Shown: positions 11,101-35,086 of the stretch, in pieces
Position numbering within the stretch: position 1 is the stretch's first letter
Layout of the letters: the number at the start of each line of letters is the position of its first letter
IMG/VR virus record: IMGVR_UViG_3300027759_000231
Location: 1-35,537 of that record
Length of the DNA stretch: 35,537 bases
Source of the DNA: a virus
Strand: one strand, 5' to 3'
The notes under the pieces: model-generated
The model's input: the letters and a program-made list of their open reading frames with translations, nothing else
Databases searched by the model: none
Told to the model about the DNA's origin: nothing
Made by a program: the position numbers and the translations under genes

Positions 11101-14100
11101 TTGTCAAAACAAATACAACAGTTGTTATAACTTTAGCAAGACGTCACGAAATAGCAGTTGATGATATTATTGGTATTAAAAATATTGTTAATCTTACAGG
11201 CTTCTTTAAGGTAACAGTCGTCGATACAAAATCAATAACTATAGAAGTTTCAGCTTCTGCACAAGATCCTCAATTTGATTCAAGCACACTTGAAAACCTA
11301 TGGGTGTTTACAGAAGCACGAGTTTTGTCATACGAAGCACTTGATCCACAAAAAGCAGCGTTGTTAAAAAATGGTTCAGCATTGTGGATTGATAATAACG
11401 GCAATGATCTTTGGGAAGCTATTGTAAAAATACAACAATATTCAAATAAAGAAATCATTGAATATGGAACTACTACTCCGATTTATTCAGGAACTAAAGT
11501 TTTATATGATGATAAATTAAAACAGACAATTTCAAGTATCCCAGGTTCGGGATATGTAATGACATATATTGAAACCCCAGCAGGGTTAGCACTCAAACAG
11601 ATCATTGCACCGCCGAGCGGATTTGAAAATAATGTTCTTGGATCCTTTGGCGTCAAGATGGCACTCAGCCCAGACAGCCGTTGGTTGATAATCTGTTCAC
11701 CACAGGCCAGCGGTGTTGCCAGCAACTATCGCGGAGTGTTCAATCCTGCTATCAGCTATATCGTAGACGATATTGTGTTGTATGCTGGTCGTCTATGGAA
11801 AGCTACAGCAGATGTCTATGGCGACGGTAGTTCGATTAATATTGCATCTGGCGATTGGGCTCCTGCTACAATAATTCCTGCCAATGCATCAGGCACTGAC
11901 GGCGGTTATACAAGACAGGGAATGATCTCTATATATGAATATGTAGATCAGCAATGGACACATAAAAATAGTTTTGTCAGCCCCAGACCAGCTGCAGATG
12001 AGTTATTTGGATCCGAAGTAACTATCGGTGTTTCTGGCAGTACTTATTATGTCGCAGTATCGGCTACTCAATCAGTAGATAATAGAGGCCGAGTATATCT
12101 TTATACATATACTGGCACCGAGTGGAGCCACTTAGAAAATTCTAACTACACCGGAATATACGACCCAGCGACAACCAGCTATCACTACGGTGATATTGTT
12201 TGGTACGATTCTAATCTTTGGTTGTGTCTTGATGATTCGACCGGTAACAGTGATGGTAGTACATTGACTGTTGATTCGTTAGGATGGAAAAAATTAGATC
12301 CTGTTTCAACACATTGCTCGTTACCGACTAATATTTCTTTAGAAGATGATGGATCAACATTATCAAACTTATTAGAACAACAAACAGATATAGGTAGTTT
12401 TGAAAATACTCAACTGGCAGAATTAATCAAAGCCGGTGATAAATTCGGTACAAGTTTAACGATGAACAGAGACGGCAGTATTTTAGCTGTCGGTGCGCCA
12501 TTTAGTGACGGGCAGTATTTTGCAAATTATAAGGGTGTATGGAGACCAGACATTGAATATGTCGAAGGAGATGTTGTAAAATATCAAACTTCCTATCATC
12601 GACTAATTCAAAGAATCGATGAACTTGACGGTTCTACAACACGCAGTTATAACGAATTACCAGATGCAGGATTACCATGGGATACTGTCGGTGACAGTAC
12701 AACTGAATCATGTGGTAAGGTCTTTATCTATCAACGGTCTGAGTTTGGAGTTTATAATCTTAAACAGACAATCACAGCGGGCACACTTGCATCATTCAGT
12801 GACATTGAATCCGGGCTAACAGTTAATATAGGTGATCAATTTGGTCATGCACTTGACATTGATTATAGCGGTTACACCTTAGTTGTAACAAGCCCACGTG
12901 CAGATTTAAACTATCTGAACCAAGGTTCTGCATTGGTATTGAGAACCGACGGATTAGCCAATGTTGAATATCGAGTAAAACAACAGCTCGAAAGTTTTGA
13001 AATTTATCCTAATGAGTATTTTGGTCAAAGTGTGGCAGTTACACCAGGCGCAGAAAAAATTGTAATTGGAGCAAAAAATTCTCCGTTTATATTACAAACA
13101 ACATTTGATGGCTATGCAGGAACGATTTGGGATTCTGGAAAAACTAAATTTACCTACACTCGTGGATTTGCAGGGGGGGTATATGTATTTGAAAAGAAAC
13201 ACGATACATATTTCTTAACTGAAAAATTAGAAGCTGAGATTTCACCATTTGAATCTTTCGGGTCATCTGTAGATTGCAGTTATTCAACAATCGTTGTAGG
13301 ATCTCCTGATTATATTAAACCTGTTGTAAATTCAGTAACAGGCGGTCGTACCTATACCGGACCTAAGGTTGGTATGGCACGAATATTCACAAAAGATCCA
13401 AATGTAGAATCCTGGCAAACAACTAATATTCAACAGCCTGTAGTAGATATTTCAACTATTAAGAGCATTGCATTATATGACAATATCAAAGATGTTAAAA
13501 TACAAGACATTGATTTTGTTGATCATGCAAAATTAAAAATTTTAAATGTCGCTGAACAAGAAATTAAATTTAAAACAAGTTATGATCCGGCTGTTTATTC
13601 TATAGGTACTACAGATCAAACTGTAGACGAAACTACAGCATGGACCAATAAACCTGTAGGACAACTATGGTGGGATCTTTCTACGGCTAAATGGGCGTAT
13701 TATGAACAGGGAGATGTATCATTTAGAGCATCGTCTTGGAATACATTGGCAGTAGGAGCCAGCATTGATGTATATGAGTGGGTAGAAACTGTATTATTAC
13801 CAAGCGAGTGGTCGGGATTAGCAGATACAAACGAAGGAACTGCCTTAGGAATTTCTGGACAGCCGTTGTATCCAAATGATGATGTCTATTCAATAAGAAT
13901 TTTATACAGTCCTGAAACTGGATTACCGACATCTACCTTATATTACTATTGGGTTAAAAATAAAGCAGTAACTCCTACTGGTATACCTGGCAGAAGGGTT
14001 TCGGCATCAACGGTAGCATCCTATATTCAAAATCCAGCAGGAACAGGCATTACATTTATTGCACTAATCGATGCAGATAAATTCTTGGCTTATAATTTTA

Positions 14101-17100
14101 AAACAGTATTAACATCAGATACTGCTGTATTGAATATTCAATATAGAAAAAATAATAAACAATTAAATCCTATCCACAATGAATATCAATTATTGACTGA
14201 AGGTGTGGCAGATAGTTTACCAGCAGAACGTCTTGAAGCTAAATGGATTGACAGTTTAGCAGGATCAGATGCCGCTGGCAATAGAGTTCCTGATCCTAAA
14301 CTACCTGCTAAACAGCGATATGGTCTAAGTTTTAGACCAAGACAAAGTATGTTCATGGATCGATTACCAGCATTAGAAATTGCTATAACGAATATCAACA
14401 CTGTGCTGGCAAAAGAGCCTTTTGCAGATACTGTTAATTTTGAATATTTAAATTTAGTAGATAGTGTCCCATCGGTTTTTCTAAACTTATATGATACAGC
14501 AGTTGAAACTGAAATAGATTTAGCCGCAGTAGGAACAACTCGTATCAAACCAGCGGTACTTTCTGTTAATATTATCAATGGTGAAATTGATACTATCGAC
14601 ATTATTGAACCAGGATTTGGATATAAAGTTCCGCCGCCAGTTGAATTTGAAGGCGACGGAGTGGATGCTGAGGCAGTTGCGTACCTTGATAGACAGGGAC
14701 AGATCATCCAAGTAATAGTAACACGTCGCGGTAAACGATATTCTACAGCAATCGCTAAGGTGCGCAATTTTTCAGTATTAGTATATGCTGACAGTACTGC
14801 TAATAATTTCTGGAGTATATATTCTTGGGACAGTGTGCGTAAAGTATTCTTTAGAACCGGATCCCAAGCATATGACACAAGAAGATATTGGAATTTAATT
14901 GATTGGTGGAAAGACGGATACAGTATTGTTTCCAGAATTGTTAAAGAAATTGCAAACACCACAATTGAACCAACAATTATACTATCAGTGGGCGACCTAC
15001 TAAGAATAAAAGAATACGCAGGCGGCGGCTGGGCAGTGTTTGAAAAAATCAGCGACACTGGAACTTTATTCTCTGACAGATATTCTATGGTAGGTAGAGA
15101 AGCTGGTACTATTGAAATCAGCACAGATCTTTACAAAACTTCAGTGACAGGAATTGGGTATGACAATACACAGGCATACGATTCAGTAATATATGATATT
15201 GAAAATTCTTTAGAATTGAGAAATATTCTCAAGGCAGTTAAAGAGGACATATTTATTGGTGATTATGCTGTTGAATGGAACAAACTATTTTTCAACAGCA
15301 TTAGACATGCGTTTGCAGAACAACAGTATATTGACTGGGCATTTAAAACCAGTTTCGTAAATGCCACACATAATATCGGAGCATTTGAACAAAAAGTTAA
15401 CTATAAGAATGATAACTTAGCCAGCTTCCAAGATTATATCAATGAAGTTAAACCTTATAGAACTACTATTAGAGAATATGTCAGTCGCTATGACACAATT
15501 GAAACAGCTCCTTCTGCGATTTCAGATTTTGATCTGCCAGCAACTTATTCTGCAGCCGAAGGAAAAATTGTTCCGATAACTTCAACAAGTGCTGAAGTAT
15601 TAACGTATCCTTGGAGATGGTGGTATACTAATCAAGGATATTCAATAACTGCTATTGAGGTATACAATCAAGGAACTGAATATTCTTCAGTTCCTACAGT
15701 GCTAATTGAGGGCAACGGTACTGGTGCAACAGCAAGAGCTTATATTTCAAACGGAAAAGTCGCAGGTGTTGAAGTATTAACACCTGGATCAGGCTACACC
15801 GCAGCACCAACAGTTACGATTGTTGGAGGTAATCCATCTACAGCAGTCAGAGCAAAAGCAGCAGCTATCTTAGGCAACGCCAGCATTAGAACTATGAATG
15901 TTGCAGTTAAATTTGATAGAATAGCAAAAACAGGTTTATATAATAATTTTTATCAAACTGAAACATTTATTGCGACTGGCTATAGTTCTGTATTTGAATT
16001 AAATTATGCGCCATCGAGAAATAAAAATCTTATCACGATATTGAAAAATGGCCAATTGGTATTGAATAATGAGTATTCTATCAGTTTATATTATTCAACA
16101 GCACCAGGTTATACCCTGTTGAAAGGAAAGATTGTATTTTCAGTAACTCCTGAAAAATCAGATGTAATAGAAGTTGTCTATGAAAAGAATGATTCGTTAT
16201 TAGACAGCATCAATAGAATTGAAAAATACTATAATCCTTCGGCCGGCATGAAAGGCAAAGAACTCGGACAATTAATGACCGGTATTGACTTTGGTGGAGT
16301 TCAGATCCAAGGTACCACATTTGATGTAACCGGTGGATGGGATGCCCTTCCTTGGTTTACAGACAACTGGGATAGTGTAGAATCGTCAGCTGACTATTAT
16401 GTAGTATGTGATGGCAGCACAACAACTATTACATTACCATATGTCCCAGCAGCCGGCCAAGAAATAACAATCTATATTAAACGTGCCGGAGAATCAAAAG
16501 CCAGACGAGTTGACGATCGTTATTATACCGATCAAGTAGATTCATCAACAGCAATAAATCCTAATGCTGAAATGCCAACCTTTATTGGTGACGGAGTATC
16601 TAAAGAAGTTGTAATCGGTATCTATATTCAAACCAATGTAGGCGATACTTTAATTTTCCGTCCTGTCGAAAGCGATGGCTCGGTGACAATTACTGATACA
16701 AATTTATTAGATACTAAACTTAGTGGTGGATCACTATCGGCCATGAGCGGAGCCTATGCTACTGCTACAGGCATGTCAGCAGAAGAAATATCAATAGACG
16801 GTGATAAATTTATTACCCCTGATCAAGTACCAGCTCCAGAAGAAAATGTACCAGGACAGGTTATTGATAGTCTAAGTATTAAAGTGTTTAATAACACCCT
16901 GTCTGGCACAGCACCGTTACAGGCTAAAATTATAAAAGGCAACGGTACTGATAGAACATTTGATATTGGTCTTACAATATTAGAAATTAATTCAATTTTA
17001 ATTTATGTTGATAAAATTAAAAAAGAAAATCTTACAGACTACGAAATAGATTTTATTAATAATCAAATAATATTCAACACAGCCCCAGCAGCAGCCGCAG

Positions 17101-18878
17101 TTATCGAACTTATTGCAATCGGTGTTGGCGGTGTGTCTCTGTTAGACTATCAAGAATTTATTGCAGACGGCAACACCACACTATTCCTAACCAGCGCAAA
17201 CTACAGTAATACTGCATCAATATATGTCACAGTTAATGGTGAATATCAGGATGTTGGATTTATCAATAGTACCGGGGTAGTTGACGCTGTTGATAAAACA
17301 TTAGTACAATTTGGTATCAAGCCATCTTATAGAGACGTTGTAAAAATAATCTGTCTTGGAGCGGGTATAGATACTGATTCTTCTGGAGTTAATGTAGTAA
17401 GAGTTAACAGACAGACGTTCGAATTCGAAGGCAGCACCCGAAATTATGACCTTGATAATTTTGTCAATTTAACAAGATCGTCAGCAAGAACTTCGATGAT
17501 TGTTGAGCTCAACGGCTATGCTTTAAGAGGCCCAGATACCGTGTACGCTATCTATGATGGAGTAACTAACGCATTCACTTTAGGTCTTGATCCGTTGGAA
17601 CCATCTGGAGCAATTTTAACCAGCAACATCAAGGTATTTGTTAATAACGAATTGAAAACAGTTATTCAAGACTATGTCTACGATGGTACAACAAAAATAT
17701 TGACCATCGAATCGTCGATATTAGAAATAGGTGATGCAATTAAAATTGAAAACGACTTTAGAGCCGAATACTATATCGAAAATAATAACTTGGTAATTAA
17801 CAATGATGTAGTTATGGATTATACCAATGAAACCAATAATGACATAATTGAAGTCACGTGGTTCGGAGAATATCCGTCGATGGACATGGTCAGTGACGAA
17901 TTTACTGGCGGCAAAGTAAATTATCCATTACCACAAACACCATTAAATTCATCTTATATCTGGGTATATAAGAACGGACAACGATTAACAGTTGACGTAG
18001 ATTATACAGTTTCTCTACCAAGAGGAGTTATGTATCTTACTGCATCATCAACAGCAGCCGATCTCATTAAAGTTGTAATGTTCGGATCTATAATCTATAG
18101 ATTCCCGAGTGCATTTGAACTGTCTAAAGACATGTTGAATATTCATCATTTCAATAGATACTCTACAGGTGCTGTACACTTGGCCACCACTCTAAACTAT
18201 TATGATCAAACAATTACAGTTGATGATGCTTCGATCCTAACAGATCCTATTCCTTCGAGAAACACCCCAGGTGTAATTCTTATTGCAGGCGAAAGAATCG
18301 AATATATGAATAAAACAGGTAATGTTTTATCACAGCTACGACGCGGCAGCCAAGGAACACCGATTAAAGAATTATATGCTACCGGAACCGATGTTGCGGA
18401 TGTGGGGCCAAATGAAACAATACCATACAACGAGACCCAAGGACGTGAGGATTTTATATCAGACGGTAGCAGTACACTAATTGGACCGCTGGAGTTTACT
18501 CCGTCGAAAGGAATAAGGTCTACATGGTATCGTTCAACAATACCTACAGACAACGGGCCCTGCGATCAAATTGAAGTTTTTGCAGGCGGCAGAAGATTGC
18601 GTAAAGATCCAATAACTGTTTATGACGAACAATTAGGATCCAGCAGCCCTGCTGCTGATAAGCAGATTGAAGCTGAATTCTCAGTAGATGGAACAACAGC
18701 ATATATTCGATTAACTAATGCAATTCCTGCAGGAACACGCATTTCTATTATTACAAGGACCGGTAAAATTTGGTATGAAAGAGCCGATACAACGGCAAGT
18801 AAGGGTGTTACCCTGCTTGAAAACAATACAGCTATTGCTAAATTCATAGCTCAGAAGACAACTAAATTGCCCGAATAA
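5130..18878 (+). CDS. Giant modular virion protein, 4582 aa (tail/baseplate-associated)
   Basis: One uninterrupted 13.7-kb frame, about 39% of the window. I recognise the type (very large tail proteins next to gp6 in aquatic T4-like phages) but cannot assign a T4 gene. Modules in order: a conserved N-terminus (about 1-160); a first carbohydrate-binding-like module (217-261); a Trp-rich block (from about 1144: WWRGVYKW, RPHRCPWEMLGF, TWWENQYG) that I recall as conserved; two more such modules (1458-1501, 1716-1757); an FG-GAP beta-propeller (about 2150-2760) containing three more; glycine-rich GSGYTAAPTVTI-type repeats (about 3150-3580); many small 'xVxVNGxxLxxxxDY' beta modules in the C-terminal third; and a C-terminal domain (about 4330-4582). 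No signal peptide or transmembrane segment is evident. It starts 11 nt after gp6 with a weak ribosome site (AAAGA). Likely roles are baseplate-periphery scaffold or long adhesin; this is inference from position and modules. Confidence 0.8.
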   Translation: MADKKFTKSQLPIRKTVELLPTVFRTDTNDKFMSAVVDPLVQPGVLQKLTGYFGRRYGKTYNGNDTYLDTDQTLRSRYQLEPGVVVRKDDKIESFYDYLDFKNQLKFFGNTNDHDDQITSQEHYSWNPPIDWDKFVNYREYYWEPSGPPAVAVSGQQATVVSKYKVALGVNSFIFTPDAYTNNPTITLYRGQTYKFSIDAAGEGFAIRTNYDTGSLLYNPAKEYVKDQRAIYDGKLWKAKQTIPPLDGSSIDLNTQDWEFIELVSTGTALDYSRGVTNNGIQNGTLTFVVPYDAPDVLYYQGLVSPDRVGRFLITNIESNTKINIDKDIIGKVNYTSSNRVEFTNGLVVEFLGQVTPSIYAQDTWIVEGVGEAITLTKFSDLVVPALVVDAPEVVFDNEGFDTQPFDDAATYPVQKDYITISRDSVDKNPWSRYNRWFHRSILEYAYSSRGQDFPATESARAKRPIIEFNSNIQLHNHGSIAKTNVDYVDDYTTDIFSVIEGSSGYNIDGEAIFKGARILVIADKDSLANNKIYRVEFITHNSKRQITLKATDDSDSIIGQGVLVRRGNKNKGLMYHFNGTNWISSQAKTKVNQPPLFDAFDADEVSFSDPTTYPVSTFNGTKLFSYKIGNSRVDSELGFSLSHLNIDNVGDIQFNWDWDTDQFFYTINRVAYSKQISTGFYKFNPNNVYANGWVKTDATYIQPIIDSIVIAEATNTVTLTTIDWSAITESTKLIINLYHNGKKITSSYTREFGKFTFTKTFAVGDVISIKIVTDLEPDTGYYKMPVSLEKNPLNQSLSTFTLGQALDHISTAIEFNTEFAGSMPGVSNLRDINNYQPYGIRFLKHSGLAPLAVSLLCDKTINLIKSIQQSKKAYTDFKNNFISRSAEMEYNESIADFVDDIISDLTKTKTADSPFSDSDMIGSGAFTTITYTVDDVGITTFALSEKFSLNELSRRAVYVYISGKQLLVNQDYTFNETFGFVNISKTLREGDVVEIREYVSTAFNHIPPTPTSLGLYKKYTPMIFVDDTYQEPKKVIQGHDGSIIFAFDDFRDDLLLELELRIYNNIKQQYDPSVFDIDLVLGGYYGNALYNKTQLDDIVNQEFLKWIQNSNINYTLNTYFDTENSFTYTYSNMTNPEGTQQLPGWWRGVYKWAYDTDRPHRCPWEMLGFSEKPTWWENQYGVAPYTCNNLLLWEDLRDGIVRQGNRAGTYDRYKRPTLMNHIPVDGDGKLLSPLDSNFAGNFSLTYNRGSFSLGDVSPVEYAWRSSSEWPFAVIMALCLMKPFEFITDSFDRSKTKINKLNQTVNKVTDLFSTITDIDVPAAGGYLSAGLVKYLASYVKSKGLPLSALEDKIKNLDVNLSNRLSGFVDKAQFKYLLDSKNPKATTSGVYVPAENYDIIFNVSAPIATFSYSGIILEKSENGWIVSGYDDIHPYFNYFAAAANQTDPLISVGGITETFIDWTPAKTFSNGQIARYRDSFYRCIKTHMSGQEFETTLWKKLPKLPMVGAVEALRRRQFNIGLKKLSYGTQLESIQAVIDFILGYEQYLKSIGFVFDRYDATNKVAHDWTTSCKEFMFWTTYNWASGALITLSPGAERLDITVPVGVADNILDGFYDYQVLKADGKPLQPNFINVNRGFQNITIEPTNTTEGLYYVKIYHVLKEHVTVFSDRTVFNDIIYDKSTGYRQERIRAQGFRTVDWDGDYTSPGFLFDNVNINAWQPWTDYKLGDIVAYKSYNWTSLSNQYGVETFDDTKWSKLDTTPEKQLVANFDYRINQIEDYYDAISEGVGAVQRDLARHTVGYQTREYLQNLSSDPVTQFLLYQGFIKEKGTANAITKIFDKLSRSSSDSIILNEEWAFRVGRLGGIDQLTEIEIQLAKNKFLINPQPILIESSVPTVITDQYYRLTGSDFTIAPLPFTPYINPVDLAVTPSQTAGYVAPYMPEHIFANRDAILTSGNIEYILENHHLWITFDNYSWQVLRFNEAPLLTITDIVKTNTTVVITLARRHEIAVDDIIGIKNIVNLTGFFKVTVVDTKSITIEVSASAQDPQFDSSTLENLWVFTEARVLSYEALDPQKAALLKNGSALWIDNNGNDLWEAIVKIQQYSNKEIIEYGTTTPIYSGTKVLYDDKLKQTISSIPGSGYVMTYIETPAGLALKQIIAPPSGFENNVLGSFGVKMALSPDSRWLIICSPQASGVASNYRGVFNPAISYIVDDIVLYAGRLWKATADVYGDGSSINIASGDWAPATIIPANASGTDGGYTRQGMISIYEYVDQQWTHKNSFVSPRPAADELFGSEVTIGVSGSTYYVAVSATQSVDNRGRVYLYTYTGTEWSHLENSNYTGIYDPATTSYHYGDIVWYDSNLWLCLDDSTGNSDGSTLTVDSLGWKKLDPVSTHCSLPTNISLEDDGSTLSNLLEQQTDIGSFENTQLAELIKAGDKFGTSLTMNRDGSILAVGAPFSDGQYFANYKGVWRPDIEYVEGDVVKYQTSYHRLIQRIDELDGSTTRSYNELPDAGLPWDTVGDSTTESCGKVFIYQRSEFGVYNLKQTITAGTLASFSDIESGLTVNIGDQFGHALDIDYSGYTLVVTSPRADLNYLNQGSALVLRTDGLANVEYRVKQQLESFEIYPNEYFGQSVAVTPGAEKIVIGAKNSPFILQTTFDGYAGTIWDSGKTKFTYTRGFAGGVYVFEKKHDTYFLTEKLEAEISPFESFGSSVDCSYSTIVVGSPDYIKPVVNSVTGGRTYTGPKVGMARIFTKDPNVESWQTTNIQQPVVDISTIKSIALYDNIKDVKIQDIDFVDHAKLKILNVAEQEIKFKTSYDPAVYSIGTTDQTVDETTAWTNKPVGQLWWDLSTAKWAYYEQGDVSFRASSWNTLAVGASIDVYEWVETVLLPSEWSGLADTNEGTALGISGQPLYPNDDVYSIRILYSPETGLPTSTLYYYWVKNKAVTPTGIPGRRVSASTVASYIQNPAGTGITFIALIDADKFLAYNFKTVLTSDTAVLNIQYRKNNKQLNPIHNEYQLLTEGVADSLPAERLEAKWIDSLAGSDAAGNRVPDPKLPAKQRYGLSFRPRQSMFMDRLPALEIAITNINTVLAKEPFADTVNFEYLNLVDSVPSVFLNLYDTAVETEIDLAAVGTTRIKPAVLSVNIINGEIDTIDIIEPGFGYKVPPPVEFEGDGVDAEAVAYLDRQGQIIQVIVTRRGKRYSTAIAKVRNFSVLVYADSTANNFWSIYSWDSVRKVFFRTGSQAYDTRRYWNLIDWWKDGYSIVSRIVKEIANTTIEPTIILSVGDLLRIKEYAGGGWAVFEKISDTGTLFSDRYSMVGREAGTIEISTDLYKTSVTGIGYDNTQAYDSVIYDIENSLELRNILKAVKEDIFIGDYAVEWNKLFFNSIRHAFAEQQYIDWAFKTSFVNATHNIGAFEQKVNYKNDNLASFQDYINEVKPYRTTIREYVSRYDTIETAPSAISDFDLPATYSAAEGKIVPITSTSAEVLTYPWRWWYTNQGYSITAIEVYNQGTEYSSVPTVLIEGNGTGATARAYISNGKVAGVEVLTPGSGYTAAPTVTIVGGNPSTAVRAKAAAILGNASIRTMNVAVKFDRIAKTGLYNNFYQTETFIATGYSSVFELNYAPSRNKNLITILKNGQLVLNNEYSISLYYSTAPGYTLLKGKIVFSVTPEKSDVIEVVYEKNDSLLDSINRIEKYYNPSAGMKGKELGQLMTGIDFGGVQIQGTTFDVTGGWDALPWFTDNWDSVESSADYYVVCDGSTTTITLPYVPAAGQEITIYIKRAGESKARRVDDRYYTDQVDSSTAINPNAEMPTFIGDGVSKEVVIGIYIQTNVGDTLIFRPVESDGSVTITDTNLLDTKLSGGSLSAMSGAYATATGMSAEEISIDGDKFITPDQVPAPEENVPGQVIDSLSIKVFNNTLSGTAPLQAKIIKGNGTDRTFDIGLTILEINSILIYVDKIKKENLTDYEIDFINNQIIFNTAPAAAAVIELIAIGVGGVSLLDYQEFIADGNTTLFLTSANYSNTASIYVTVNGEYQDVGFINSTGVVDAVDKTLVQFGIKPSYRDVVKIICLGAGIDTDSSGVNVVRVNRQTFEFEGSTRNYDLDNFVNLTRSSARTSMIVELNGYALRGPDTVYAIYDGVTNAFTLGLDPLEPSGAILTSNIKVFVNNELKTVIQDYVYDGTTKILTIESSILEIGDAIKIENDFRAEYYIENNNLVINNDVVMDYTNETNNDIIEVTWFGEYPSMDMVSDEFTGGKVNYPLPQTPLNSSYIWVYKNGQRLTVDVDYTVSLPRGVMYLTASSTAADLIKVVMFGSIIYRFPSAFELSKDMLNIHHFNRYSTGAVHLATTLNYYDQTITVDDASILTDPIPSRNTPGVILIAGERIEYMNKTGNVLSQLRRGSQGTPIKELYATGTDVADVGPNETIPYNETQGREDFISDGSSTLIGPLEFTPSKGIRSTWYRSTIPTDNGPCDQIEVFAGGRRLRKDPITVYDEQLGSSSPAADKQIEAEFSVDGTTAYIRLTNAIPAGTRISIITRTGKIWYERADTTASKGVTLLENNTAIAKFIAQKTTKLPE
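5779..5912 (+). other. Carbohydrate-binding-like module 1 of the giant protein
   Basis: Residues about 217-261 follow the pattern of small CBM5/12 (ChtBD3)-like domains: YNPAKEYV, then a hydrophobic-Y-D-G-K-LWKA strand, a Gly/Asp loop, and a closing Trp (QDWEFI). Further copies with the same layout occur at 9502-9632, 10275-10400, 11727-11868, 12147-12297 and 12528-12690. Known members bind polysaccharides through exposed aromatic residues; binding here is inferred. Confidence 0.5.
9502..9632 (+). other. Carbohydrate-binding-like module 2
   Basis: Residues about 1458-1501: FIDWTPAKTFSNGQIARYRD, then FYRCIKTH, closing with LWKKL. It keeps the W..xxY/F..G..v.Y.....y......W pattern of module 1, and lies in an otherwise unrecognised region of the giant protein. 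Confidence 0.45.
10275..10400 (+). other. Carbohydrate-binding-like module 3
   Basis: Residues about 1716-1757: AWQPWTDYKLGDIVAYKSYN, a short strand with WTSLS, and a closing TKWSKL. This is the clearest match in the set, with W-x6-Y-x2-GDIV-x-Y intact. Confidence 0.55.
11560..13420 (+). repeat. FG-GAP-type beta-propeller with inserted carbohydrate-binding-like modules
   Basis: Six blades of the giant protein carry the motif xFGxxxx...G..ivVgxP, with FG pairs near residues 2172, 2291, 2438, 2570, 2630 and 2709 (for example DKFGTSL...AVGAPFSDG and ESFGSSV...VVGSPDYI). Each blade ends with a G-x-V-x-I/V-Y strand (GRVYLYTY, GKVFIYQR, GGVYVFEK, GMARIFTK). A strand before the first FG (GYVMTYIE) could close the ring. 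This is the integrin-alpha N-terminal propeller pattern, although the DxDxDG calcium loops are mostly replaced. Carbohydrate-binding-like modules lie inside blades 1 and 3 and after blade 2 (11727-11868, 12147-12297, 12528-12690). Confidence 0.6.
15993..18090 (+). repeat. Array of small 'NG...DY' beta modules in the giant protein
   Basis: At least five copies of a 40-50 residue unit: a strand ending in V/N-N/K-G, a short turn, DY/EY, a second strand, then a closing 'D-x-I-x-V' strand. Examples are LITILKNGQLVLNNEYSI, SILIYVDKIKKENLTDYEI, NIKVFVNNELKTVIQDYVY and YIWVYKNGQRLTVDVDYTV. Two earlier copies lie near 7320-7455 and 7999-8130 (VYVYISGKQLLVNQDYTF). Such units are common in phage fibre shafts and probably build a long, rigid structure. 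Confidence 0.6.
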
Positions 18879-26282: not shown

Positions 26283-26728
26283 CACAACAAATTGTAATTT
26301 TTGATAAAACAGGCAGTCACGCCATATCAGTGATGGATTATAGCGAACAATTTGCTACAAATTTATCCGCCACTAATGTAAAATACCGAGTTGAAAACAT
26401 TGGCTCAGAAGAATACTTTTGGGGAGATTTTGCAACAGGTAAAGTTTACGACAAACATGAAAAACCATTGATTGATGAGTTGGCCATTGACACTATTATC
26501 AACAAAGAAATTCTGGTTAAGTATCCTGTTCATGCACAGTTAAACATCATGGCAGATTGTATCGAAAAAGCCGGTATACCGTTGACTGCTGAATTTATTG
26601 AAATGCGTGATTTCATCAAACAAAAAGTTGAAAATCACAATACAGCAAAACAGGTATATCAAGAAAATCCAGACATTTACGCATTTTGGCCAAAACCGAA
26701 TGCTACTTTCGATCGTAACAAATACTAA
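26279..26728 (+). CDS. Probable tail-fibre assembly chaperone
   Basis: 149 residues, starting in a 4-nt overlap (ATGA) with the oxygenase stop; GGGG lies about 9 nt upstream. The N-terminal half is beta-rich with EEYFWGDFATGKVYD. The C-terminal half is helical with INKEILVKYPVHAQLNIMAD, then EFIEMRDFIKQKVENHN and AKQVYQENPD. I recall this C-terminal pattern from small proteins next to fibre genes in T4-like aquatic phages, which probably fold or trimerise fibres; that role is inference. There is no catalytic motif, signal peptide or membrane segment. Its stop codon overlaps a late-promoter candidate for the next fibre gene. Confidence 0.5.
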   Translation: MTQQIVIFDKTGSHAISVMDYSEQFATNLSATNVKYRVENIGSEEYFWGDFATGKVYDKHEKPLIDELAIDTIINKEILVKYPVHAQLNIMADCIEKAGIPLTAEFIEMRDFIKQKVENHNTAKQVYQENPDIYAFWPKPNATFDRNKY

Positions 26729-26734
26729 TAAATA
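26727..26734 (+). promoter_or_regulatory. T4-type late promoter candidate for fibre 4
   Basis: AATAAATA followed by C, 7 of 8 to the late consensus and identical over nine bases to the site at 18874. It overlaps the upstream stop codon (26726-26728). Transcription would begin near 26740, leaving a leader of about 17 nt with the ribosome site AGGGG (26745-26749) before ATG 26758. Confidence 0.55.
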
Positions 26735-26757: not shown

Positions 26758-28518
26758 ATGGCATATCAGGTAAACAAATTTAACGGAACATTAATAGCAA
26801 CGGTCGAAGATGGTGTGATCGATACTACTACTGATCTGCGTTTTATTGGTAAAAATTACGCAGGTTATGGTGAAGTTCAGAACGAAAATTTCCTACATTT
26901 AATGGAAAATTTTGCAAATACTACAGCACCTCCAAAGGCAGTTGTTGGTCAAATATGGTATGACAGTGCAAATAGCAAATTAAAATTTTATAATGGTTCT
27001 AAATTTAAGACAGCCAACGGTGCAGAAGTCAGCACAATTGCTCCAAGCGGATTAGCAGTTGGTGAGTTTTGGTGGGATAGCTCAGCAAAACAATTATATA
27101 CATACTCCGGAACAGATTTCGTATTAGTGGGCCCAGTAGCCAGTCCTGAGCTCGGTACAAGTTCAGTATCAGCAGTGGTTGTTAAAGATACCTTAAACAA
27201 TAATCACACTATCCTTAAGATGATTGCCAGCGGTGAAGTAGTAGCTTTGATCAATAATGATGATGCATTCACACTAAATCCGACATCTAAACCGCCAGAA
27301 TTAGTAAACTTTACTAACGGTGCTGTGAAAAAAGGTATTACCTTAAGATCTACAAATTCTTCAGGTGTAAGTTCAAACTACATCTATTGGGGAACAGCTT
27401 CAAACGCAGATAGACTTGGCGGCATTGCAGCAGATCAGTTCTTGCAGAAAGATGCACCGGAGCCGTTTGCCAATGAAATCTTCTTTAGCGACAATGGATT
27501 GACCATTGGTGATGGTAATGATTTCCGTGCATGGGTTAAAAACGGTGATGAAATCACACTTGAAAGCCAACAGGGCAACGACATTTATGTAAGAATCACA
27601 GTTACTGAAAATACAGACGAGAGAGATGTTGCAGTATTCAGCCAAACAGGTATTGCGCCTGGGCAAGATGCTGTCTACACATTAGGTAAGAGTGGAGCAA
27701 GATGGTCTAATGTCTATTCTCAAACATTCACTGGTGCATTAACAGGCAATGTAACTGGTAACGTAACCGGTAATACTGTTGGCAATTTAGTAGCAGCTGA
27801 TGCAACGGTAATGGTCAACGGTACTACAAAAGAAATTGGGTATGTTGGCGCAACTCTTAGAGGTACATTATTTGGTACTGTGTCTGGAGATGCTACTGGA
27901 CAATCAGGAGATTCGTTAAAACTCGCTGGAAAATCAGCATCGATCACAGTTACAGCCGCAACAGCAGAAATTCCAATTAGAGATACATCAGGTAATATCT
28001 ATGCTAACGGATTTAAAGGTATCGCTGATAAGGCAGATCAGCTGTTAGTCGGAGCATCATATAGATCTACTTCATTAGAAGCAGATGCTAACACAGTTGT
28101 AGCAAGAACAAGTTCCGGTGATATTAAAGCCAATATCATGTATGGTACTGCAACCTCTGCTCGTTATGCAGACTTAGCTGAAAAATATCTTGCAGATAAA
28201 GAATACGAAGTTGGCACAGTAGTTGTAGTAGGTGGCGAAAAAGAAGTAACAGCCAGTTCCTTCGGTGAGTTAGCAATTGGCGTAGTATCAGAAAATCCTG
28301 CTTATATGATGAACAGCGAACTTGTTGGTGGAACGTATATTGCTCTTAAAGGTCGAGTTCCGGTTAAAGTAACTGGCGCAGTTAAAAAAGGTGACAGATT
28401 AGTTGCAGGAGATTGGGGATGTGCCCAAGCCGCTGCCGATCGTTTAGATATTTTTGCAATTGCATTAGAAACCAGCGATGATACTGGTGTCAAGATTATA
28501 GAAGCAGTGGTACTGTAA
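26758..28518 (+). CDS. Tail fibre protein 4 with C-terminal Peptidase_G2-like domain
   Basis: 586 residues. The common N-terminal domain is intact (FIGKNYAGYGEVQNENFLHL, VGQIWYDS). The shaft includes TLGKSGARWSNVYS (about 309-322) and short tandem GNVTG repeats, typical just before such C-termini. The end (about 468-586: ARYADLAEKYLADKEYEVGT, VVSENPAYMMN, YIALKGRVPVKVTGAVKKGD, GVKIIEAVVL) resembles the Peptidase_G2/intramolecular chaperone domain, which helps the fibre trimerise and then cuts itself off. If so, the mature protein would be shorter than 586 residues. I cannot place the cleavage site from sequence alone. The gene has its own late-promoter candidate and ribosome site, separate from fibres 1-3. 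Confidence 0.75.
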   Translation: MAYQVNKFNGTLIATVEDGVIDTTTDLRFIGKNYAGYGEVQNENFLHLMENFANTTAPPKAVVGQIWYDSANSKLKFYNGSKFKTANGAEVSTIAPSGLAVGEFWWDSSAKQLYTYSGTDFVLVGPVASPELGTSSVSAVVVKDTLNNNHTILKMIASGEVVALINNDDAFTLNPTSKPPELVNFTNGAVKKGITLRSTNSSGVSSNYIYWGTASNADRLGGIAADQFLQKDAPEPFANEIFFSDNGLTIGDGNDFRAWVKNGDEITLESQQGNDIYVRITVTENTDERDVAVFSQTGIAPGQDAVYTLGKSGARWSNVYSQTFTGALTGNVTGNVTGNTVGNLVAADATVMVNGTTKEIGYVGATLRGTLFGTVSGDATGQSGDSLKLAGKSASITVTAATAEIPIRDTSGNIYANGFKGIADKADQLLVGASYRSTSLEADANTVVARTSSGDIKANIMYGTATSARYADLAEKYLADKEYEVGTVVVVGGEKEVTASSFGELAIGVVSENPAYMMNSELVGGTYIALKGRVPVKVTGAVKKGDRLVAGDWGCAQAAADRLDIFAIALETSDDTGVKIIEAVVL

Positions 28519-29463: not shown

Positions 29464-30417
29464 ATGCCTGTTAATGATAAAATTTTTAAAGCTGACTATA
29501 ATAATATTCGTAATAAAGTTACAGGAATATTAGGTACTGGCTCTGGAAACTCCGGGTACGGACAACCTGTAAGAAGCTCAGCAGTATCTGAGTCTGATAA
29601 AGTTACCATTAACGAATGGGGCGCTTTATATTATGATATTGTAAATTGTTATATTCATCAAACTGGTGCTGCTCCTGGATCACCATCATCGGCTGTAGAG
29701 AATGCTACGATCGCATATCGATCGACTCAGCCTAATTATCAATATGATGATTATGCAAATGTCATTGTTGCTAACAAATTTACTGTTGCGGGTTCTCAAA
29801 GTTTTACCACAGCCTACGGAACAACCAGTCGAACCTGGCCTGGAATATACGGAAGTTATTGGAATTCAACAATTTCCTGTACAATTACTGCTCAATGGCC
29901 AACGGCAGCCGCAGCAAGATATTTTTTCAACAGTGGCGGAGAAATTAGATTTAGTAGCTCGTTAACAGGTTCCACTGCTAATGCACAGACAATTAGTTGG
30001 ACTACTCTATTATCGGGAGCTGGAACAAAAGCATTTGGGGGTAATAAACCCGGAACCGGTACAAGCCCGTCTGATAATACTAACTTCTATAGATTAACCA
30101 ATGCGTATTCCGTCTGGACATCGAGTTCGGGTTCGGGTGCGTATACTTCTAACGTTTGGCGAATCCAAGCCAGATGTAACGTGGTTAATAATACCTCCGG
30201 CGGTGCAACACAAATTGAATTTTTAGTACAATGGATTGATGGATATGTTGATCCGTTTCCGCCAATTGCAGAAAACCCTCCGCCCGGTGACGAAGTTTAC
30301 GGAACTGTAAATCTTTCAGTTTCTACATTAGCAGCGACTGGCACATTACAACCTGCCGGAACGGGCGCATTCTCAGTAACTCAACCAACAATTACTCTTG
30401 GTGGCATCGCACCATAA
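29464..30417 (+). CDS. Putative virion structural protein, tandem paralogue B
   Basis: 317 residues. It matches the previous gene block by block: DYNNIRNKVTGILGTGSG, SGYGQ, NCYIHQTG, AARYFFNSGGEIRFSSS, ISWTTLL, V-Q-W-I-D-G-Y-V-D and PPGDEVYGTVNLSV. Between blocks the two differ widely, so the duplication is old or the domains are under strong diversifying selection. The 38-nt gap upstream holds a weak late-promoter-like site, and AAGGA is the only purine-rich stretch, rather far from the ATG. No function is known to me; a surface-exposed structural role is inferred. Confidence 0.65.
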   Translation: MPVNDKIFKADYNNIRNKVTGILGTGSGNSGYGQPVRSSAVSESDKVTINEWGALYYDIVNCYIHQTGAAPGSPSSAVENATIAYRSTQPNYQYDDYANVIVANKFTVAGSQSFTTAYGTTSRTWPGIYGSYWNSTISCTITAQWPTAAAARYFFNSGGEIRFSSSLTGSTANAQTISWTTLLSGAGTKAFGGNKPGTGTSPSDNTNFYRLTNAYSVWTSSSGSGAYTSNVWRIQARCNVVNNTSGGATQIEFLVQWIDGYVDPFPPIAENPPPGDEVYGTVNLSVSTLAATGTLQPAGTGAFSVTQPTITLGGIAP

Positions 30418-30423
30418 ACACGC

Positions 30424-30469
30424 TTCTCATTAATACAGCACTATAAATAAACTGCTATGTTAATGAGGA
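30424..30469 (+). promoter_or_regulatory. Hairpin that would hide the ribosome site in read-through RNA
   Basis: Arms TTCTCATTAATACAGCA (30424-30440) and TGCTATGTTAATGAGGA (30453-30469) pair over 17 positions with one mismatch (C30436/A30457) and two G-U pairs. The 12-nt loop holds the late promoter, and the 3' arm contains the Shine-Dalgarno TGAGGA of the gene at 30476. RNA that reads through from upstream would form the stem; RNA begun at the loop promoter would lack the 5' arm. No T-run follows, so it is not an intrinsic terminator. Confidence 0.7.
30442..30449 (+). promoter_or_regulatory. Exact T4-type late promoter, TATAAATA
   Basis: The only exact TATAAATA I found in an intergenic stretch of this window. 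It sits in the loop of the 30424-30469 hairpin. Transcription would begin at about 30455, two or three bases inside the 3' arm, and would serve the overlapping cluster from 30476 to beyond the window end. Confidence 0.75.
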
Positions 30470-30475
30470 CCTGTA

Positions 30476-30826
30476 ATGGAAGAACAACTTAAAAAAGCGT
30501 TAGACTTTTCAAACTATCGCCAAACTTTTTCAATCCAACGCCGTACACTTAAAGAAAAAATTGAAGCCAAATTAACCTATGGCTGCAATGGCGGTATCTT
30601 TAAGATTGATCGATCATTGATTACATTTGTCCAATTGCTAATAGATCAAGGTCGTGTCAGTGGAGTTCCACTAATTGATGCTAACGATAATCCAATTTTA
30701 ATTGACAACTTAGAAACATTTAGAGATGAAATCTTAGATCGTTATTTTACCTCTACACTTGAATACTATGAACAGTATCAAGATCTTAAAAAAAGCCGTT
30801 CGGTTGAAAAATTATTAGACCTATGA
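30476..30826 (+). CDS. Conserved small protein of unknown function, first gene of the overlapping cluster
   Basis: 116 residues, largely helical and charged. Recognisable blocks are LDFSNYRQTFSIQRRTLKEK, TYGCNGGIFKIDRSLITFVQ, LLIDQGRVSGVPLIDANDNP and the end KKSRSVEKLLDL. I recall close relatives in many aquatic T4-like phages, always without assigned function. There is no catalytic motif, signal peptide or membrane segment. The ribosome site TGAGGA (30464-30469) lies in the 3' arm of the hairpin described above, so its translation should depend on late transcription. The next gene starts in a 4-nt ATGA overlap, which suggests coupled translation. Confidence 0.75.
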   Translation: MEEQLKKALDFSNYRQTFSIQRRTLKEKIEAKLTYGCNGGIFKIDRSLITFVQLLIDQGRVSGVPLIDANDNPILIDNLETFRDEILDRYFTSTLEYYEQYQDLKKSRSVEKLLDL

Positions 30827-31686
30827 ACTGCGGCGCTCTAATATTTGCCCATAACAGTCGAGAAGTTGATTATGCATTAATTGCAATAATTTCTGGCGGA
30901 TTGGCCCGCAAGCATCTTAATGTGCCAGTGACATTAATCACCGATGCGTCAACAGAAGCATGGATGAAAGACTCTGGCACGTATCAAAAAGCCGTTGAAG
31001 TTTTTGATAAAATCATCCTTGTTGAAAAACCCAAGACAACAAATGCAAGAAGATTGCATGATGGTGCCAGCAATAAAACAGTTCCATTTGTAAATACCAA
31101 TCGCAGTTCGGCTTGGGATCTTACTCCCTACGATCGTACACTATTATTAGACAGTGATTTTTTAATTTTTTCAGATCGCCTAAATGAATATTGGTCAGTG
31201 GATGATGATTTTTTAATTGCTGGTACCGTAACGGACATCTATGATCAAAAAAGATTAGGCTATCACGACAGGTATGTTTCGGATACAGGAGTACATCTAT
31301 TCTGGGCAACCACTGTGATGTTTACTAAAAACGAACGAAGTAAATCGCTGTTTGACATGATCGACTATGTCAAGAAGAATTATGAATATTACGCAGATAT
31401 TTTTAGATTTGATCACAGACAGTTTCGCAATGATATTGCTTTCAGCGTAGCCAAACATATATTAGATGGATTTACTACAGAAGCAAAAATAACACTGCCG
31501 CCTCTATTGACAGCGTTAGATAAAGATATCCTGGTCAGTGTTGACACTAATGGAAAATTAACATTTTTGGTAACTCCAAATTCAGATAGTGAGTTTTGTG
31601 CTGCGACAATTAAAAATACAGACTTGCATATTATGAATAAACAAAGTATAATAAGAAATGCAGAATCGCTCATGACCCTAATATGA
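30823..31686 (+). CDS. GT8-like glycosyltransferase A
   Basis: 287 residues. The fold pattern is that of a GT-A nucleotide-sugar transferase: an N-terminal beta strand (GALIFAHN), REVDYALIAII, a strand ending VTLITD (about 36-41), and the metal/nucleotide motif D110-S-D112 in RTLLLDSDFLIF. The sequence layout parallels the next gene product, and both resemble GT8 (glycogenin-like) enzymes, which pass a sugar from a UDP-sugar to an acceptor. The acceptor could be a phage tail protein or a host glycan; nothing in the sequence decides. It has no membrane segment, so it is probably cytoplasmic. It overlaps its neighbours on both sides by 4 nt (ATGA). Confidence 0.65.
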   Translation: MNCGALIFAHNSREVDYALIAIISGGLARKHLNVPVTLITDASTEAWMKDSGTYQKAVEVFDKIILVEKPKTTNARRLHDGASNKTVPFVNTNRSSAWDLTPYDRTLLLDSDFLIFSDRLNEYWSVDDDFLIAGTVTDIYDQKRLGYHDRYVSDTGVHLFWATTVMFTKNERSKSLFDMIDYVKKNYEYYADIFRFDHRQFRNDIAFSVAKHILDGFTTEAKITLPPLLTALDKDILVSVDTNGKLTFLVTPNSDSEFCAATIKNTDLHIMNKQSIIRNAESLMTLI

Positions 31687-32522
31687 AATTTGGATACCTA
31701 TTAATAATTTCTGAAAACGCAGATGTAGACTATCTTCAAATGGCCTACGCACTGGCCTTGAGCATTAAGAATACACAGAAACCAGGATATGACCAAGTAG
31801 CATTGGTTACTGATAATCCCACTGCTGTGAATGAATTAAAATCTGCATGGGTGTTTGATCATGTAATTGCCTGGGATCAAGAAACATTCTGGGATGGTCG
31901 CAGTTGGATGGACACACTGTCACCGTTTGAAAATACAGTCTGTCTTGATGTAGATATGTTATTTCTCAGAGACTACAGTCACTGGATTGATTATTTTACT
32001 GAGAATACTGAGCTATACGTTGCTAACAACGCCTACACCTATAGAGGTGAATTAGTTGTAAGTGATGATTATCGAAGAACATTTACAAGAAACCAGCTGC
32101 CTAATCTATATTCTTTTTATACTTTCTTTAAAAAAGACAGTGCATTGGCAAAAGAATTTTTTACCTTAGGTAGATATATTTTAAAAAACCCAACAGAATT
32201 TTCTAATCATTTCTTATCGGAATTAAAACCAAAAGTAGTTGGTACAGACGAAGCGTTTGCATTGTCTGCTAAGATACTTGATATTGCAGATGAGATTGCA
32301 TATGATCTTGAATTTCCAAAAGTAGTTCACATGAAACCATTAGTACAAAACTGGCCATGGCCGGCAAACTTGTGGAGCGACCATGTAGGGTTCTATTTTA
32401 ATCGTAAAGGCAACTTAAAAATAGGCAACTATCAACAGTATGATATTGTTCATTATGTTGAAAAAGACAAAGTCACACCTGAGATGATTAATATTCTGGA
32501 GGAGATAGCATGGAAGAAATGA
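31683..32522 (+). CDS. GT8-like glycosyltransferase B
   Basis: 279 residues, paralogous in layout to the preceding protein: GYLLIISENADVDYLQMAYA at the N-terminus, VALVTDNP (39-46), and the DxD motif D89-V-D91 in TVCLDVDMLFL. The segment VGTDEAFALSAKI later in the chain fits the second acidic motif region of GT-A enzymes, and VVHMKP (His) is placed where GT8 enzymes have a metal-binding His. Metal-dependent transfer from a nucleotide sugar is therefore likely; the sugar and acceptor are unknown. The start overlaps the previous stop by 4 nt (ATGA). Two adjacent diverged transferases suggest successive steps on one glycan, which is inference. Confidence 0.68.
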   Translation: MKFGYLLIISENADVDYLQMAYALALSIKNTQKPGYDQVALVTDNPTAVNELKSAWVFDHVIAWDQETFWDGRSWMDTLSPFENTVCLDVDMLFLRDYSHWIDYFTENTELYVANNAYTYRGELVVSDDYRRTFTRNQLPNLYSFYTFFKKDSALAKEFFTLGRYILKNPTEFSNHFLSELKPKVVGTDEAFALSAKILDIADEIAYDLEFPKVVHMKPLVQNWPWPANLWSDHVGFYFNRKGNLKIGNYQQYDIVHYVEKDKVTPEMINILEEIAWKK

Positions 32523-33139
32523 TAGAATTTGAAGACTTTGTAAAAAACATACAGCTTCCTGAACTAACATATTCGGCAACATTTAATCCTACAACAGGCG
32601 CAGTGATTAGTGTGGGACCATCTCATGCGTTTGTTGATGAACAGCATAAAATTTCTTTAGACAGAGAGACAGCAGAGCAGATTATTGACGGTACTATAAA
32701 GGTTAATTCTTGTTTTGTAGACATCACCGGAGGCAAGTTAGAAATTGCAGAAATACAATCAGTTTATAAAATTGACGATGTGCTACATAGGATCATTGAA
32801 AAGAAATGGTCAGCGATAACTAAACCAGAAATTTATATTTCTTATGATAGAATTAAAAAAACACTGACTGTAGAATTAACCGAAGAATATTTTGGAACAA
32901 AAAAAGTTCCAAAAAAATATCATCCTATTAGTAAACGAAAAGTAATCTGGAGTGGCGAAACTGAAATGAGTTTTTTAATTACAGATTATAATGATCCAAA
33001 CATATTGTATAAGATGGTATCTCTTACAGTATCTGATCTTGTAGAAAAAAAGAAAATATTTAAAGATATCGAACTACCAGATAGGTTTAGCGTATACACA
33101 CGCCGTATCTTTAAAAATTATGTTTTAGGTGATCTATGA
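32510..33139 (+). CDS. Conserved protein of unknown function in the glycosyltransferase cluster
   Basis: 209 residues from ATG 32510, chosen because GGAGGAG (32498-32504) lies 5 nt upstream; an in-frame ATG at 32519 would be too far from it. The coding overlap with the preceding gene is 13 nt. The sequence is mixed beta: GAVISVGPSHAFV, a Lys/Ile-rich middle with KIDDVLHRIIEKKW, then SFLITDYNDPNILYKM and the end YTRRIFKNYVLGDL. I recall these blocks from other aquatic phages, without function. No catalytic motif is evident. Its place between two pairs of transferases suggests an accessory or acceptor role, which is a guess. Confidence 0.65.
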   Translation: MEEMIEFEDFVKNIQLPELTYSATFNPTTGAVISVGPSHAFVDEQHKISLDRETAEQIIDGTIKVNSCFVDITGGKLEIAEIQSVYKIDDVLHRIIEKKWSAITKPEIYISYDRIKKTLTVELTEEYFGTKKVPKKYHPISKRKVIWSGETEMSFLITDYNDPNILYKMVSLTVSDLVEKKKIFKDIELPDRFSVYTRRIFKNYVLGDL

Positions 33140-34023
33140 AAGTAATTGAGTTTGATATTATATTTTTAAGTTACGACGAGCCTAATGCTGATCTACACTA
33201 TGCAGATCTCTGCAACAAAGTACCTTGGGCTAAACGTATACACGGAGTTAAGGGCAGTGACCATGCACACAAGGCCGCCGCAGAATTAAGTGAAACTGAT
33301 TGGTTCATCACTGTCGATGCTGACAATATTGTAGATCCAAAATTCTTTGATCTGGATCTCGACATGAGCAATCCTAAGATACAGGTCTATGGCTGGTGCG
33401 GCTGCAATGTCATCAACGGTCTACGCTATGGTAACGGTGGATTGAAAATCTGGAAGAAAGATTTTGTATTGAATATGCGTACACACGAAAATTCAGACAG
33501 TGAGCGAGGACAGGTAGATTTCTGTTGGGAAGATGGATATCAGAATTTTCCAAGAGTTTACAGCAACAGTATTATTACAGGATCACCATTCCAAGCATGG
33601 AGAGCAGGATTCCGTGAAGGTGTAAAAATGACCTTACTCGACGGTGTTAAAGTTCCTCCGCAGGAAATTAAAGAACATATCTGGTGGCACAATATCCATA
33701 GACTGCGTATGTGGTCCACAGTAGGCGCACACGAAGAAAACGGATTATATGCAATCCACGGTGCAAGGCTCGGAACTTACATGACCAATTGTACAGATTG
33801 GGATTATGTACAGGTTAGAGATTTTGAAATATTAAAATCTATATACGAAGAAAAAGTAAATCACGATACACTTACTGATTGCATTGGACGATTGGGAGAA
33901 CAAATTAAACTTAATTTAGGTTTAGATTGGCCTAATTTTAATGCTCAGCAGAGCAGGTATATTTTAGATCTTTATGACGAAACTATTAATTTAGGATTAA
34001 CCTACTATCGCAATGATCTATGA
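33136..34023 (+). CDS. DAD-type glycosyltransferase-like protein C
   Basis: 295 residues. The N-terminal about 200 residues look like a GT-A (GT2-like) domain: FDIIFLSYDEPNAD, AKRIHGVKGSDHAHKAAAEL, and the acidic motif D61-A-D63 in FITVDADNIVD. Later blocks are NGLRYGNGGLKIWKKDF and SPFQAWRAGFREGVKM, then a His/Trp-rich segment (HIWWHNIHRLRMW). I recall this family as frequent in aquatic viruses and usually annotated glycosyltransferase, but activity is unproven. The next protein is its paralogue. The start overlaps the previous stop in ATGA. Confidence 0.65.
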   Translation: MKVIEFDIIFLSYDEPNADLHYADLCNKVPWAKRIHGVKGSDHAHKAAAELSETDWFITVDADNIVDPKFFDLDLDMSNPKIQVYGWCGCNVINGLRYGNGGLKIWKKDFVLNMRTHENSDSERGQVDFCWEDGYQNFPRVYSNSIITGSPFQAWRAGFREGVKMTLLDGVKVPPQEIKEHIWWHNIHRLRMWSTVGAHEENGLYAIHGARLGTYMTNCTDWDYVQVRDFEILKSIYEEKVNHDTLTDCIGRLGEQIKLNLGLDWPNFNAQQSRYILDLYDETINLGLTYYRNDL

Positions 34024-35086
34024 TATTTTTTACGTCAGCAAGAGTACTATTGCAGATGAAGATTGGCAACAATTTTCTAAGCGTTTTCCATTGGCACAAA
34101 AAATAGAAAATGTAAAAACCTTTACAGATATTCGATCACGAGCATTTACTAAAATGTTTTGGGTAGTATGGAATGACCTTGTTATTGCCGATGATTTTAA
34201 ATTTGATTATGTAGTACCTGAATGGGATAAAACTTTTATTCATGTTTTTAAAAACAAAGATTACTATGATGGTGTAACGCTATTTCCTAAGTCAGCAGAT
34301 TTTATTCAAAAAGAATTTGAAAATCGCTTTTTCATAAACAATAAAAAAGAAATTGACATTGTAGCATCAACTCCTAAACCGTTTGACATCGTGTTTATCA
34401 GTTACAACGAATCTAATGCAGATGTAAATTTTGCAGAACTTCAAAAACAGTTTCCAAGAGCAAAACGTGTACATGGAGTAAAAGGCATACATCAAGCTCA
34501 TATCAAGGCAGCAGAATTAGCCACCACAGAAATGTTATGGGTAGTAGATGCTGATGCTGTTATTGTAGATGGATTTGATTTTACAGTTGAACAGATACCC
34601 TATTACAGCAATAACGCTCGAAGAATGTTAAACACTACAGTTCATGTATGGCGCAGCCGTAATCCAGTTAACGGACTCGAATATGGATACGGAGGTGTAA
34701 AATTGTTACCGAGAAAACTAACTCTCGATATGGATGTCAACTCAACTGACATGACCACCAGCATCAGCAAATTGTTTAAGGCCATGCCATCAGTCAGTAA
34801 CATTACAGCATTTAATACAGATCCGTTTAGTAGTTGGCGTTCAGCATTTCGCGAATGTGTAAAATTATCATCACGAGTTATCGATGGACAAGTAGATGAA
34901 GAAACACAGAATCGATTAGATGCGTGGTGTACATTAGCGGATGATGTTGTCTATGGATTCCATGCCTATGCAGGGGCACTTTCGGGTAAGGCATACGGTA
35001 ACAAATATAAAAATGATCCCGAAGCATTAAAAAAGATTAATGATTTTGAGTGGCTAAAGGCAAGGTTCGATGAAGCTAAACATTAA
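34013..35086 (+). CDS. Two-domain glycosyltransferase-like protein D, first domain degenerate
   Basis: 357 residues. Residues about 124-357 are paralogous to the preceding protein: FDIVFISYNESNAD, AKRVHGVKGIHQAHIKAAEL, D179-A-D181 in WVVDADAVIVD, NGLEYGYGGVKLLPRK and DPFSSWRSAFRECVKL. Residues 3-105 repeat the start of the same domain in decayed form: YDIFYVSKSTIADEDW, FPLAQKIENVKTF, then WVVWNDLVIADDF, where the DAD motif has become W-N-D, and YYDGVTLFPKSADF for the glycine-rich block. The N-terminal copy probably lacks metal-dependent catalysis and may bind a partner or acceptor. It overlaps its neighbours by 11 nt upstream and 17 nt downstream. Confidence 0.65.
   Translation: MIYDIFYVSKSTIADEDWQQFSKRFPLAQKIENVKTFTDIRSRAFTKMFWVVWNDLVIADDFKFDYVVPEWDKTFIHVFKNKDYYDGVTLFPKSADFIQKEFENRFFINNKKEIDIVASTPKPFDIVFISYNESNADVNFAELQKQFPRAKRVHGVKGIHQAHIKAAELATTEMLWVVDADAVIVDGFDFTVEQIPYYSNNARRMLNTTVHVWRSRNPVNGLEYGYGGVKLLPRKLTLDMDVNSTDMTTSISKLFKAMPSVSNITAFNTDPFSSWRSAFRECVKLSSRVIDGQVDEETQNRLDAWCTLADDVVYGFHAYAGALSGKAYGNKYKNDPEALKKINDFEWLKARFDEAKH

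Follow-up and report, generated by a model that had tools for sequence, protein, structure and literature searches.

A late promoter enclosed in a hairpin that covers the ribosome site of a 116-aa gene, found in the tail region of a T4-related phage and in its relatives, is real, conserved and covarying. We consider it likely that the late promoter sits within the segment encoding a hairpin that sequesters the Shine-Dalgarno (SD) sequence, as in T4 e and I-TevI, and that its purpose here is mainly insulation; the hairpin-promoter most probably works like the T4 e and I-TevI leaders, and its genomic context suggests a purpose other than that of T4. The DNA analysed (hereafter the window) is a virus record of 35.5 kb, with all of its tail-region genes on the + strand, among them those of a gp5-type hub, gp25, gp6 and several fibre proteins. 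A single 4582-aa ORF (5130-18878) also separates the gp6-type baseplate gene from the tail-fibre genes, and the long relative G001 carries a 4595-aa counterpart at the equivalent position. The gp6-type protein of the window matches phrog_10646 (E 1e-287), and its nearest cultured relatives, at about 35% identity, are found in jumbo phages, namely Sinorhizobium Phosso, Agrobacterium Atu_ph07, Salicola SCTP-2 and the Munch/BF group, while a search for close DNA relatives of the window in cultured phages gave none that was convincing. The host lineage of the device is a group of uncultured large T4-related phages.

In the window, the 5' arm of the hairpin (30424-30440, + strand) carries the anti-SD at its own 5' end and is supported by pairing, by folding and by the arm-swap test described below, and the 3' arm (30453-30469), supported by pairing and folding, contains the SD TGAGGA (30464-30469), 6 nt from the ATG at 30476. 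These 17-nt arms pair in register at 16 of their 17 positions, two G·U pairs included, the only mismatch being C30436·A30457, and the 12-nt loop between them (30441-30452) carries the gp55-type late promoter -10 element TATAAATA at 30442-30449. From the T4 rule we infer that late transcription starts about 6 nt past this motif, at 30455. The initial annotation had already given the arms, the mismatch, the two G-U pairs, the loop, the SD and the ATG, all of them correct on recheck, and had proposed folding the junction; 30415-30485 folds with a minimum free energy of -17.2 kcal/mol, whereas dinucleotide shuffles give -7.0 +/- 2.0 (z -5.2, none of 200 as low). The frequency of the motif was discarded as evidence, since one exact copy of TATAAATA in the window, against about five expected by chance, proves little alone, and for this reason the promoter reading leans on the conservation of TAAATA.

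The 116-aa gene was located in 238 loci, from which 98 distinct junctions were analysed, and TAAATA is present in all 98 of them, nearly always 23-33 nt before the ATG. Accessibility was measured as the calculated free-energy cost of opening the SD, either in an RNA that retains the 5' flank or in an RNA begun about 6 nt past the motif, and each junction was compared with 60 control versions in which the 5' flank had been shuffled. The predicted cost in the window is 11.4 kcal/mol in the read-through RNA, 0.8 in the late RNA and 4.0 with a shuffled flank, and the corresponding medians of the 98 junctions are 8.0, 1.65 and 4.0 kcal/mol. When the 5' end of the window RNA was moved stepwise, the SD switched between starts at 30426 (8.7 kcal/mol) and 30429 (2.0 kcal/mol), RNAs begun at 30429 or later being predicted to have an open SD at a cost of 1.5-2 kcal/mol. 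In 64 of the 98 junctions the native masking was equalled by three or fewer of the 60 shuffles, where about six such junctions would be expected. The hairpin is thus widespread, but not universal, among homologous junctions: the initial annotation had held that homologues keeping the promoter and losing the pairing would speak against its reading, and about one-third of the junctions keep the promoter with no clear pairing. These exceptions are scattered over the tree, on which the masked or unmasked label changes at least 11-12 times, a count from a quick tree that partly reflects the sharp cut-off. In six loci (L005, L007, L014, L039, L222 and L254) a different hairpin, AAACTGCTAAT...TTAGGAGTTT, located 3' of ATAAATA, takes over the masking of the SD; its 5' arm spans the predicted start site, and initiation there would again truncate the hairpin.

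A single consensus structure on a MAFFT alignment was tried and dropped, given that bulges and registers differ between subgroups of junctions, and because of these differences we adopted an alignment-free arm-swap test, in which each 5' arm is folded with the promoter and 3' arm of every other junction. For the 54 junctions sharing less than 85% identity, the native combinations had a mean of -12.7 kcal/mol versus -7.4 for the permuted ones (z -13, with 0 of 10,000 permutations as low), and this test is conservative because the relatives left in the set flatter the swapped pairs. In a set of 34 strong homologous hairpins, two to four kinds of Watson-Crick pair occur at almost all paired positions, and pairing around the SD is among the most consistent. 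A test for pairing in the sense-strand RNA, comparing G·U with A·C appositions, gave 34 to 24, which goes in the right direction but is too slight to carry weight. The compensating changes in relatives that the initial annotation had proposed looking for were therefore found, and on these comparisons the compensatory change in the arms is real and indicates that selection keeps the pairing.

Four long relatives (122-186 kb) served as control genomes, in which the other ATAAATA motifs lying 18-36 nt before an ATG (n = 38) had a median opening cost of 2.25 kcal/mol, with none reaching 7. In these four genomes, ranking by opening cost puts the four junctions of the 116-aa gene on top, and none of the other late-promoter-like sites is as strongly masked. 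As positive controls, the known T4 leaders went from 14.8 in the read-through RNA to 2.9 in the late RNA (e) and from 11.8 to 0.3 kcal/mol (I-TevII), and T4 soc and 49 were missed, so the measure is not exhaustive for the known cases. A second hairpin candidate, at G001 168041(-), was rejected, having a strong stem with an unmasked SD (0.4 kcal/mol). We also observed that the leader of a 94-aa gene conserves ATAAATATATACGTGGTTAATTAGGA(A)CACGTATA, which makes a small palindrome about the SD within the late RNA itself, at G001 30390(+), G002 20350(+), G003 96886(+) and G004 4728(+).

The late transcription system that such a promoter calls for is represented in the lineage by a gp55-type sigma, encoded in all 10 long relatives, the 35-kb window itself containing no such gene; the profile of the relatives' proteins matches the solved T4 gp55 7d7c (E 3.6e-7), and a predicted structure of the gp55-like protein was too poor to use (pLDDT 64). 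This late sigma homologue, exemplified by L085 18838-19686 (G001 77338-78186), with homologues in the ten long relatives, has about 285 aa and combines a gp55-like C-terminal half with about 140 aa of conserved N-terminal sequence that T4 gp55 lacks, so that it could be extended or fused. Profiles for gp33 and gp45 (phrog_254, phrog_25387, phrog_223 and PF02916) matched nowhere, and absence of these factors is not thereby evidenced. ATAAATA is the late consensus of CBB/GAP32-type jumbo phages (PMC5259590) and NATAAATA that of cyanophages (PMC2984593), in both cases before structural genes. As a separate observation, facing pairs of ATAAATA about 15 nt apart occur in G001 (behind L009) at 83973(+)/84002(-), in G002 at 74408/74435, in G004 at 57489/57517 and in G009 at 58170/58191; in the three genomes with ORFs called, both facing promoters have an ORF downstream on their respective strands, and the pair of late mRNAs would overlap in antisense at their 5' ends.

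Among known systems, the closest likeness is with T4 e, where the DNA for the 5' side of a hairpin that sequesters the SD contains the late promoter TATAAATA, and where the late RNA is free and the read-through RNA masked about 100-fold (PMC3014915), a behaviour matched in our accessibility measure. However, e is one gene in an early transcription unit, whereas the junction described here has a tail and fibre (late) unit upstream and heads an overlapping multi-gene cluster. A late promoter together with a hairpin hiding the ribosome site in the longer RNA is also found at I-TevI, I-TevII, I-TevIII and segB of T4 and at mobE of Aeh1 (PMC2988022), and the masking in the I-TevII leader is reproduced by our measure, but those genes are homing endonucleases on early or middle RNA of host genes, in contrast to the conserved phage gene considered here, which is probably chaperone-like. 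The CBB/GAP32-type jumbo phages and the cyanophages share with it the late promoter motif before structural genes, and the available portions of those two reports mention no SD-masking hairpin (PMC5259590, PMC2984593).

Other readings of the junction have to be weighed against this one. An inverted repeat centred on a promoter, with only a small excess of G·U over A·C, might act at the DNA level as an operator for the promoter's regulator or as a cruciform, but the arm sequences diverge while the pairing persists, unlike an operator, the pairing is concentrated on the SD, and the subgroups differ in bulges and registers; we hold this to be very improbable. A stable stem between two gene groups could equally be a transcription terminator or an RNase processing site between two operons, a reading that we find hardly credible, given that no U-run follows the stem, that a terminator scan of the junction found nothing above shuffles, and that processing would need neither complementarity to the SD nor a promoter in the loop. 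Translational coupling, in our judgement improbable, would have the ribosome that terminates upstream open the base of the hairpin, such that translation of the 116-aa gene would depend on that of the fibre-type gene before it, with the promoter as a supplement. The structural-type gene upstream (29464-30417, + strand) indeed stops 58 nt before the ATG, and the stop-to-ATG distance is tightly kept, at 55-64 nt in most loci; in 54 strong hairpins, hiding 13 nt from the stop cuts the median cost from 10.5 to 3.6 kcal/mol, and with the ribosome placed the cost falls below 4 in 28 of them, so that about half would be openable. Nevertheless, 18 of these 54 stay closed (6 kcal/mol or more) with the ribosome placed, which means that the geometry is not conserved, the window itself retains 4.7 kcal/mol, and coupling leaves unexplained the late promoter in the loop of every junction.

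A role in timing only, as in T4, in which early or middle read-through RNA must stay untranslated, has its precedent in the known T4 cases, these being late genes on early or middle polycistronic RNA (PMC2988022, PMC3014915), and yet we regard it as rather unlikely here, in view of what lies upstream. On the same strand, the junction is preceded by baseplate and fibre genes that have a late-type promoter: the tail-fibre gene at 26758-28518 has AATAAATA at 26727-26734 (+ strand), and an NTAAATA placed 17-27 nt ahead of the ATG recurs at the fibre gene 2.7-5.6 kb upstream in 32 of the 34 distinct loci, the window being one of these 32. The two loci without this fibre promoter, L184 and L189, are sister sequences in which the SD is not significantly masked, and this coincidence counts as a single event and is only suggestive. 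In G001, a same-strand block exceeding 40 kb begins ahead of the gp6-type genes and extends without interruption past the junction as far as the cluster's end, its upstream part including gp6-, gp25- and fibre-type genes. A scan for early promoters at the junction found nothing above shuffles, and sigma-70-like sites upstream of it are not commoner than in shuffled sequence, although early promoters of the host may differ from this type. The RNA that reads through the junction is probably late too, coming mostly from tail-fibre promoters, and because of this we prefer insulation over timing. The initial annotation had described a T4-type device that holds the downstream genes silent until late transcription; its first part stands, with the SD predicted to be masked in the longer RNA and free in RNA from about 30455, with arms that covary and with a gp55-type sigma in the relatives, and its second part is only partly backed, since likely read-through starts at late-type fibre promoters and the hairpin would then act within late infection.

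What the hairpin would insulate is a cluster of seven overlapping genes, as the initial annotation had counted them, beginning with the 116-aa gene (30476-30826) and continuing with the ORFs starting at 30823, 31683, 32510, 33136 and 34013 (30823-35086, all on the + strand), and with another that starts at 35070 and runs off the end of the window. Homologues of each ORF tested occur in 221-238 loci, and at least several hundred homologues of the 116-aa gene are present in IMG/VR; for this gene and the next one, no convincing match was found among 50,697 phage records. The 116-aa protein, whose model is good (pLDDT 93.5), is similar to a viral protein that is uncharacterised (E 3e-6) and has a weaker resemblance to DUF4376 proteins. 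DUF4376 is the domain found at the C-terminus of tail-fibre chaperones in Alteromonas phages (PMC10579305, PMC7289586), and from this predicted fold the 116-aa protein is probably chaperone-like. ORF 34013 has weak glycosyltransferase-2 (GT2) similarity, and the cluster goes on in G001 with a weak radical-SAM match, a GDP-mannose dehydratase/epimerase and a 2-oxoglutarate oxygenase. A 21-nt inverted repeat (86%; 33048-33068 and 33106-33126) lies near the end of ORF 32510, shortly before the start of the next gene.

The mechanism that we propose is that a read-through RNA, having both arms, would hide the ribosome site of the 116-aa gene (at a predicted cost of about 11 kcal/mol), while an RNA begun in the loop, near 30455, would have no 5' arm and leave this site open (about 1 kcal/mol, predicted). 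Masking of the first site would probably dampen the whole cluster, because the downstream genes overlap. The output of the chaperone-like gene and the glycan cluster would then depend on the late promoter in the loop rather than on tail-fibre transcripts running in from upstream, and the amount of chaperone and glycan enzymes needed may differ from that of the fibres; shielding from pre-late read-through would be a possible second benefit. Tentatively, as a serious possibility, we put forward that within the late programme the cluster is insulated from abundant fibre mRNA, a timing device having become a stoichiometry device that is kept by compensatory change in an abundant uncultured lineage of jumbo phages.

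In summary, the T4 precedents rest on a handful of genes and their close relatives, and the present comparative evidence, taken from dozens of divergent sequences, indicates that a hairpin of this type is maintained by selection in phages that lack a cultured close relative. Its position, with late fibre genes on one side and a late cluster on the other, calls into question the usual explanation that late genes are kept quiet early, and the insulation of one late unit from another is an alternative that is directly testable.
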